Source: an uncultured Bacteroidia bacterium (GTDB lineage: Bacteria > Bacteroidota > Bacteroidia > NS11-12g > UBA9320). From it: a DNA stretch of 64,000 nt. A program made the position numbers and the translations under genes. Numbering within the stretch: the first letter of the stretch is position 1; the number at the start of each line of letters is the position of its first letter. The notes beneath the pieces are model-generated. The model was given only the letters and a program-made list of their open reading frames with translations. It was not told the DNA's origin and searched no databases. This document shows, piece after piece, positions 7,952-9,678 of this stretch. The DNA is taken from NCBI GenBank assembly GCA_943787465.1, contig CALSMN010000005.1, positions 1 to 64,000 of the forward strand, written 5' to 3'.

Positions 7952-8266
7952 ATGTACGCAATAGTAGATATAGCAGGAAAGCAATTCAAAGTTCAAAAAG
8001 ACCAAAAATTGTTCGTTCACAGGATAGGTGCAGACACTGGCAAATCAGTCAATTTTGATAATGTAATGCTTGTTGATGATGCTGGTAAAGTAAGTGTAGG
8101 TACTCCATCCATCAAGGGCGCTTCAGTCACTGCAAAAGTTTTAGATCATCTCAAAGGAGATAAAGTTATCGTTTTTAAGAAAAAAAGAAGAAAGGGATAT
8201 AAAGTGAAAAATGGTCACAGACAATATCTTACTCAAATTCAAATTGAAAGTATTAAAGTTAAATAA
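7952..8266 (+). CDS. rplU: 50S ribosomal protein L21
   Basis: [25 protein letters not shown]...[26 protein letters not shown]. Confidence 0.97.
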
Positions 8267-8268
8267 TC

Positions 8269-8517
8269 ATGGCACACAAAAAAGGAGCTGGAAGTAGTAA
8301 AAACGGAAGAGAGTCTCACAGTAAAAGACTTGGTGTTAAAATTTTTGGTGGACAAGATTGTATCGCTGGAAATATTATTGTTAGACAGCGAGGTACAGTT
8401 CATCATCCAGGAAAAAATGTAGGGATTGGTAAAGATCATACATTATTTGCATTGACCGATGGTAAAGTTGAATTCAAGAAAAGAGCTAACAAGCGTTCTT
8501 TTGTAAATATTGTATAA
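8269..8517 (+). CDS. rpmA: 50S ribosomal protein L27
   Basis: [29 protein letters not shown]...[25 protein letters not shown]. Confidence 0.98.
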
Positions 8518-8569
8518 TTTTTTAATTTAGTTGTTGCACAACCAAATAAAAGTTATAATTTTGTATCAT

Positions 8570-8690
8570 ATTATAAGGCAATCATAAGCGTCTCCATAGA
8601 GGCAATATAGATTAAAGACCTTGGGCGTTCTAGCCCAAGATTTAGAGTTTTCATAGTCAATTGAAAAGGTCCCTTCGGGGGCCTTTTCTT
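8570..8690 (+). ncRNA. Candidate small non-coding RNA of unknown family, about 118 nt
   Basis: TTG (8534) - 19 nt - TAATTTTG (8556-8563) promoter; hairpins GTCTC-CATA-GAGGC (8590-8603) and CTTGGGC-GTTCTA-GCCCAAG (8620-8639); terminator at 8664-8687; no meaningful ORF. Confidence 0.55.
8664..8690 (+). terminator. Strong intrinsic terminator ending the candidate ncRNA
   Basis: AAAAGGTCCC-TTCG-GGGGCCTTTT, 10-bp stem with UUCG loop, followed by CTT. Confidence 0.85.
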
Positions 8691-8691
8691 A

Positions 8692-9345
8692 TTATTGGGG
8701 AGAATTAAATATTTTACTACCAACGCGTATTAAATTACTACCACATTTGATAGCTATGTGAAAATCACCACTCATACCCATAGATAATATTTCCCAATGG
8801 AGTTGGTCTTTATATTCATTATATAAATCCGAAAGTTTTAAAAATTCTGCTTCAATGTGTGACTCTATATGAGTATTAGTAGCCATACCCATCAGTCCTT
8901 TAACCGTTATATTTTTAAGACTTTCTATTTCAGTTGATTGAATTAACTTCCTAAGTTCTTCTTCTGAAAGCCCGTATTTATCTTCTTCCTGTGCAATGTG
9001 GATCTGAAAAAGTATAGGAATAACTCGGTTATATATTTTTCCTTGTTTATTGATTTCTCGAAGTAATTTTAAACTATCTACAGATTGAATTAAATGAATG
9101 AATGGTGCAATGAGTTTGACTTTATTGGTTTGAAGATGTCCAATCATGTGCCAACGGATATCTGATGGCATCATTTCTTTCTTCTTTAAAAGTTCTTGTA
9201 CTCTATTTTCTGCAAAATCTCGTTGATTTGTTTCATATACTTTTTCCAACTCCTGGATTGATCGGTATTTAGAAACGACAACTAAATTAGATTTTCCTGC
9301 ATGTTGACGTATTTGTTTGATATTTTCGTGGATGAAATAATGCAT
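8692..9345 (-). CDS. YggS family PLP-dependent protein (PLP homeostasis)
   Basis: NLVVVSKYRSIQELEKVYE; FAENRVQELLKKKEMMPSDIRWHMIGHLQTNKVK; GLMGMATN; LSMGMSGDFHIAIKCGSNLIRVGSKIF. Confidence 0.93.
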   Translation of the reverse strand: MHYFIHENIKQIRQHAGKSNLVVVSKYRSIQELEKVYETNQRDFAENRVQELLKKKEMMPSDIRWHMIGHLQTNKVKLIAPFIHLIQSVDSLKLLREINKQGKIYNRVIPILFQIHIAQEEDKYGLSEEELRKLIQSTEIESLKNITVKGLMGMATNTHIESHIEAEFLKLSDLYNEYKDQLHWEILSMGMSGDFHIAIKCGSNLIRVGSKIFNSPQ

Positions 9346-9678
9346 TATTTAACTACAAAGATATTTTTTGTTTGCTTAGTTATTTTTTTTGTGACTTGCA
9401 CTCCTAAATCTGATGATTTACCAGAGGGTATTTTAAATAAAGAAGTTATGATTGATGTTATTACGGATCTTCAACTATTAGATGCTGCTCAGCGATCATT
9501 CAGTACTGGAAGTATTGAAACCAACAAAATGAGGGATACATCCTACGCAATTGTCTTTAACAAGTATGAGATAACAAAATCAGATTATGATAGTAGTTTT
9601 AGATCATATGCAAGGCATCCGGAAGTATTTTCTCAAATAATGGACCAGGTTTCTCTAAAATTAAGAACTTTTAAGTAG
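9340..9678 (+). CDS. DUF4296-type putative lipoprotein
   Basis: MHYLTTKIFFVCLVIFFVTCTPKSDDLPEGILNKEVMIDVITDLQLLDAAQ; lipobox-like VTC. Track start 9301, more likely ATG 9340. Confidence 0.65.
   Translation: MHYLTTKIFFVCLVIFFVTCTPKSDDLPEGILNKEVMIDVITDLQLLDAAQRSFSTGSIETNKMRDTSYAIVFNKYEITKSDYDSSFRSYARHPEVFSQIMDQVSLKLRTFK

Follow-up and report, generated by a model that had tools for sequence, protein, structure and literature searches.

The small-RNA unit behind rpmA

The window analyzed here, a 64,000-nt stretch of a contig from an uncultured Bacteroidia bacterium, contains rplU and rpmA, the gene for ribosomal protein bL27, followed by a noncoding interval and a convergent yggS-like gene (Table 1). 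A sequence-only reading had described in this interval a complete promoter (TTG, 19-nt spacer, and −7 box), two hairpins, and a UUCG-capped terminator. Each of these elements was read directly at the positions listed, and the terminator was also found by a terminator scan. The discrete transcript in that reading is likewise predicted from the sequence, but its length is ∼120 to 125 nt rather than the ∼118 nt proposed. The reading saw no meaningful ORF in the unit, and the ORF list indeed has none of at least 60 amino acids with an ATG, GTG, or TTG start. A coding role for a short stop-free frame was rejected because some of the copies in relatives shift, break, or alter the frame and no synonymous change is seen in it.

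Table 1. Features of the rpmA-yggS interval (window coordinates)
Feature	Position	Strand	Basis or detail
rplU	7952-8266		Upstream of rpmA
rpmA (bL27), presumed parent gene	8269-8517	+	ORF; stop at 8517
Small-RNA unit	8534-8696	+	Direct reading; promoter, two hairpins, terminator
Promoter	8534-8563	+	TTG 8534-8536, 19-nt spacer, −7 box TAATTTTG 8556-8563
Predicted small RNA	8569-8692	+	−7 box spacing and terminator; start approximate
Hairpin 1	8590-8603	+	GTCTC 8590-8594/GAGGC 8599-8603, loop CATA
Hairpin 2	8609-8650	+	Apical stem CTTGGGC 8620-8626/GCCCAAG 8633-8639, loop GTTCTA
Hairpin 2, possible weak lower stem	8609-8613/8646-8650	+	RNAalifold consensus
45-nt invariant block	8620-8664	+	No differences among the 13 promoter-bearing copies aligned
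Linker TTTCATAGTCAAT, candidate recognition element	8649-8661	+	Common to rpmA 3′ UTR of sister genus G001
Intrinsic terminator with T-rich tail	8663-8696	+	Terminator scan; stem 8663-8673/8678-8688, TTCG loop
yggS-like gene, convergent	8692-9345	−	ORF; neighbor conserved in relatives

The minimum free energy of the predicted RNA is −40.8 kcal/mol, compared to −25.2 ± 3.3 kcal/mol for 200 dinucleotide shuffles (z = −4.7), which indicates that the fold is not due to chance; five homologues gave z values of −4.7 to −7.6. The RNAalifold consensus consists of three serial hairpins, in which the lower stem of hairpin 2 (AGAUU/AGUUU) is an alternative pairing with small covariation support, GAUUA/UAGUC being the competing arrangement. 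Elsewhere in the window, at 9678, the stop codon of a 125-amino-acid ORF overlaps the GTG start of a mutS2-like gene (TAGTG), and translational coupling is possible there.

Promoter type

The TTG/TAnnTTTG promoter is the housekeeping type of the Bacteroidota (PMC7366714; PMC9723704). By crude ORF calls, the genome that carries the window (G000) contains 64 intergenic occurrences of TTG-N17-21-TAnnTTTG versus 12 of the reversed motif, an approximately fivefold excess, and versus 21 in shuffled intergenic DNA. TAnnTTTG is concentrated 0 to 25 nt upstream of ATGs. Twelve of the 13 aligned promoter-bearing copies of the small RNA retain the −7 box, the remaining one reading TAAATTCG, and from this conservation we infer that the RNA has its own promoter. 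The unit thus has the makeup of a stand-alone small-RNA gene, a putative promoter and a terminator around a noncoding conserved stretch. Upstream of an M20-type peptidase gene (L326-L344), only a few bases separate a −7 box from the ATG in all 19 genomes of the genus; a box so near the ATG suggests very short-leader or leaderless mRNAs.

Distribution

DNA searches combined with a covariance model found the RNA at the same locus in 16 of the 19 genus genomes; in the other three, rpmA is missing or cut at a contig end. The gene order rplS-rplU-rpmA-RNA-yggS is kept at the homologous loci. Outside the genus, the RNA was absent from all 89 remaining genomes of the order, a weak covariance-model match in G005 being to the terminator alone, and matches in 395 sampled genomes of the class were confined to genus members; these large searches used stricter filters, which lose weak matches. 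The exact 25-nt core was found in 14 records among ∼85,000 prokaryote species genomes, titled Bacteroidetes or Bacteroidia, with one labeled Chitinophaga pinensis. Phage carriage was considered and rejected, as an exact 21-nt core pattern had no match in viral contigs. By these sequence searches, the RNA is confined to a single genus of uncultured Bacteroidia, presumably marine, as some record titles and the usual source of such MAGs suggest.

Conservation and covariation

Forty-five consecutive nucleotides are identical across the 13 aligned promoter-bearing copies (Table 1). Two further copies that are not attached to rpmA (see below) lie outside this alignment. The G015 copy, whose contig starts just upstream, was left out and has an identical core, while the second copy of G017 differs in hairpin 2 (GCAUUCUUGUCC for GCGUUCUAGCCC), keeps 8640-8664, and lacks a clear −7 box at the usual spacing. 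Within 8640-8664, 23 of 25 positions are invariant in all 21 copies, attached copies included. In the same genomes, fourfold-degenerate sites of rplS, rplU, and rpmA match G000 at 39 to 55% (21% in one genome with only 19 such sites), a background that is near saturation.

The sequence-only reading had made its case dependent on conservation of the hairpins in relatives, and they are kept; both hairpin 1 and the terminator covary. Hairpin 1 occurs as GUCUC/GAGGC, GUCUC/GAGAC, GUUAG/CUAAC, GAUAG/CUAUC, and GCAGG/CCUGC, so that four of its five pairs have changed on both sides, with 98.4% of alignment cells paired; in the terminator, 4 of 12 pairs have changed on both sides. For the whole structure, which was derived from the same alignment, 99.5% of cells are paired, versus at most 64% in slid-partner controls, and there are 38 double-change cells versus 12.5 in shuffles, a control that, unlike the slide control, ignores relatedness. 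The apical stem of hairpin 2 is nearly invariant, and covariation therefore says little about its pairing; attached copies contain a few pair-preserving changes there. The core is better kept in promoter copies than in attached copies. Together, 45 identical nucleotides beside half-identical fourfold sites and the covariation of hairpin 1 and the terminator argue for a selected structured RNA and not a chance terminator. By these sequence criteria, this is a real, selected, structured small-RNA gene whose transcription is predicted from its promoter and terminator. That the 45-nt block is nearly invariant while the background is saturated suggests an important partner.

Comparison with known RNA families

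A cmscan search against all 4,227 families of Rfam 15 returned no match at gathering level for the RNA in the window or in relatives, so the high-scoring match that would have made it a known family did not appear. Scans of the whole window and of the contigs of six relatives returned tRNAs only. A permissive scan of 8400-8800 (E up to 10) gave nothing close to a cutoff. The best score below gathering level was 19.5 bits versus a cutoff of 50, and the subgathering matches were dismissed as unrelated, weak, and terminator driven. A tracrRNA was also rejected, as an exact-repeat scan found no CRISPR array in the whole assembly. We conclude that the RNA is a new family of a known general kind, absent from Rfam. 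The proposal of an autonomous small-RNA unit, belonging either to a known family or to a new structured RNA, is thus borne out at the level of sequence. Scans of part of the G000 genome also revealed a cobalamin riboswitch at C7:14967-15134 (−) and a tmRNA at C9:1334-1707 (−).

Small RNAs of Bacteroides offer close precedents. GibS and FopS RNAs base-pair at mRNA start regions and are ligands of the RRM protein RbpB (PMC11697453), and UTR-derived small RNAs exist in Bacteroides (PMC7366714). Like GibS and FopS of Bacteroides thetaiotaomicron (PMC11697453; PMC7366714), the RNA described here is a Bacteroidota small RNA with a putative sigma-A-type promoter and an intrinsic terminator. Their conserved unpaired seed pairs with mRNA start regions, and the linker here is seed-like by sequence; one FopS member is derived from a 3′ end, as is probable here. 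FopS, however, is a multicopy family of ∼65 to 70 nt with a single-stranded 5′ seed, whereas the rpmA-associated RNA is larger, has two hairpins and a seed-like linker beside the terminator, and occurs as one copy in the genome. It has no match in Rfam, where FopS was deposited according to its paper and is assumed to be included in release 15. Compared with 3′-UTR-derived small RNAs generally, the attached copies in six relatives end with the rpmA mRNA and its terminator, as expected for this class; the G000 RNA differs in having its own putative promoter and in the loss of the attached copy.

The L17 downstream element is likewise a conserved structured RNA behind a ribosomal protein gene (PMC2864571). 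It differs in lying in the presumed L17 3′ UTR of other bacteria; the present RNA lies behind the L27 gene, has its own putative promoter, and is unrelated in sequence. Neither this element nor Bacteroidales-1 RNA, both assumed to be among the 4,227 families, matched in the cmscan search.

Bacteroidales-1 RNA is often found near a ribosomal protein gene with its own promoter and terminator. It (RF01693) is also a structured RNA of Bacteroidota and differs in order and sequence. The 6S and 6S-Flavo RNAs (RF00013 and RF01685) are conserved Bacteroidota RNAs of the same size class. The rpmA-associated RNA matches neither model, is restricted to one genus, and has three serial hairpins rather than a closing stem with a large central bubble. 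The G000 genome has no RF00013 match and no RF01685 match above the cutoff. In a control on 14 known genomes, RF00013 reached its cutoff in just 4, which makes the absence of 6S elsewhere weak evidence; the lineage either escapes these models or has a very diverged 6S RNA.

Probable origin from the rpmA 3′ UTR

Five genomes (G013, G014, G016, G017, and G020) have two tandem copies behind rpmA. The first copy begins in the region of the rpmA stop codon (e.g., ...GTA GAT TAA AG...). Such attached copies leave no room for a promoter of their own or for hairpin 1, and their terminator sequence differs. G024 has the attached copy only; in nine genomes whose interval is complete, the promoter form stands alone, with the −7 box and hairpin 1 conserved. 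G000 has the promoter-bearing copy and no longer has the attached one. Promoter copies still carry UAGAUUAAAG; in attached copies, this sequence closes the rpmA frame. In a sister genus (G001), the rpmA 3′ UTR reads GTTTAGTTTCATAGTCAATCAAAGCCATTG followed by the terminator, and the 13-nt linker is thereby preserved at this locus; in most other genera of this family, rpmA is followed by a plain terminator.

The simplest history, which we infer from these arrangements, is that the RNA was probably born in the rpmA 3′ UTR and gained its promoter after tandem duplication. The element would have started within the rpmA 3′ UTR. Tandem duplication would then have included the final bases of rpmA, and the copy lying downstream would have gained a housekeeping-type promoter and a 5′ hairpin. 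The attached parent copy would then have been lost repeatedly, with decay in G013. A small protein tree fits several losses, with weak deep support. The G024 state could have arisen by recombination between the two copies, and the reverse order, with the promoter copy first, is possible. As the RNA appears to descend from an rpmA 3′ UTR element, its autonomy is probably a derived state.

The attached copy of G013 (L009 1306-1390 [+]) is decaying, with hairpin 2 broken and the AUUUAGAG-UUUCAUAGUCAAUUG part nearly intact. The linker also occurs away from rpmA (L181 and L187); its reverse complement lies just before a terminator-like hairpin in G016:C98 and, in G017:C141, overlaps an exonuclease-like gene at the start codon.

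Proposed working and target searches

The nearly invariant unpaired linker, UCAUAGUCAAUU in the RNA, looks by its sequence like a recognition or seed element, and it is complementary to the start-codon context AAUUGACUAUGA. Transcription would start near 8569 and stop at the terminator. Hairpin 1, whose sequence is free to vary, and the terminator would protect the RNA ends, while hairpin 2 would present the loop GUUCUA and the unpaired linker. These frozen parts would contact a conserved partner, most likely mRNAs paired near their start codons, and an RRM-type RNA-binding protein may help pairing. By precedent, mRNA base pairing is the most likely class of mechanism. G000 encodes two different RRM proteins (C4:144401-144739 [−] and C5:158699 [+]), candidates for RbpB-like small-RNA partners; the start context of the latter gene, ATGAACAT, is strongly conserved in relatives.

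K-mer counts, duplex energies, and an ortholog test returned no conserved or significant mRNA target. The only overrepresented 9-mer, TCTAAATCT, reflects coding usage, as 52 of its 88 sites share a single codon phase. Across 1,783 predicted start regions, the top 20 duplex energies were −16.1 versus −15.2 ± 0.6 for shuffles, which is not clearly above the control in a test that used only the top-20 and shuffle figures. Between G000 and G019 (140 ortholog pairs from 400 kb of G019), the correlation was not significant (rho of 0.35 versus 0.21 ± 0.10). Individual candidates were rejected as well. The complementarity of the RRM gene at C4:144401-144739 is not conserved, the conserved stretch of the M20-type peptidase gene is the promoter −7 box TACCTTTG beside the ATG, and scattered near-matches to the linker in relatives precede frames that are tiny or unrelated and do not have a gene in common. 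A motif search of the assembly returned no rRNA genes.

Alternative explanations

On balance, we lean modestly toward a new genus-limited small RNA, born from the rpmA 3′ UTR, that most likely pairs with mRNAs. The joint freezing of stem, loop, and linker is more than base pairing alone would require, which makes protein binding a serious rival. Hairpin 2 and the linker would then bind one protein, for example, a regulator that binds RNA or a component of the ribosome or of RNA polymerase, that the RNA titrates or guides as a sponge or scaffold. Freezing over 45 nt fits a structured binding site, hairpin 1 would be free to vary, and the empty target searches agree with this explanation, which nevertheless has no candidate protein and only one site per RNA. 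Known protein sponges usually repeat the binding site. We regard protein binding as a credible minority explanation.

The element might instead act on rpmA itself, in mRNA stability, processing, or feedback with no role in trans, the tandem copy and promoter being secondary. The promoterless attached copies of six genomes, the attached-only state of G024, and the linker in the G001 3′ UTR are what such an element would leave, and the L17 downstream element is a precedent (PMC2864571). However, in nine genomes, the attached copy has disappeared and the promoter copy persists with its conserved box and hairpin 1, and it is the promoter copies that preserve the core better; we consider this explanation rather improbable. 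A 6S RNA that has diverged strongly and regulates RNA polymerase is much less probable still. The length is within the small 6S range and the genome has no 6S detectable by Rfam, but 8400-8800 gave no 6S match even at an E value of 10, and the three serial hairpins leave no open central bubble within a closing stem. That the unit is simply the rpmA terminator region with hairpins arising by chance is scarcely credible. A terminator does close the unit, and in other genera a plain one stands at this place, but 45 invariant nucleotides, a covarying hairpin 1, a conserved promoter box, and paralogous copies all oppose it.

Significance

The small RNAs of Bacteroidota are known mostly from gut Bacteroides, and the present RNA adds an uncatalogued family from uncultured Bacteroidia that are presumably marine. 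Because living genomes keep the attached, double, and autonomous states, the route from an mRNA tail to a small-RNA gene is open to comparison. We propose, tentatively, that a duplicated 3′ UTR element of a ribosomal protein gene became a promoter-driven and almost immutable genus-wide regulator that links ribosome production to other genes, with its parent lost repeatedly. If so, the birth of this RNA would be readable from living relatives.
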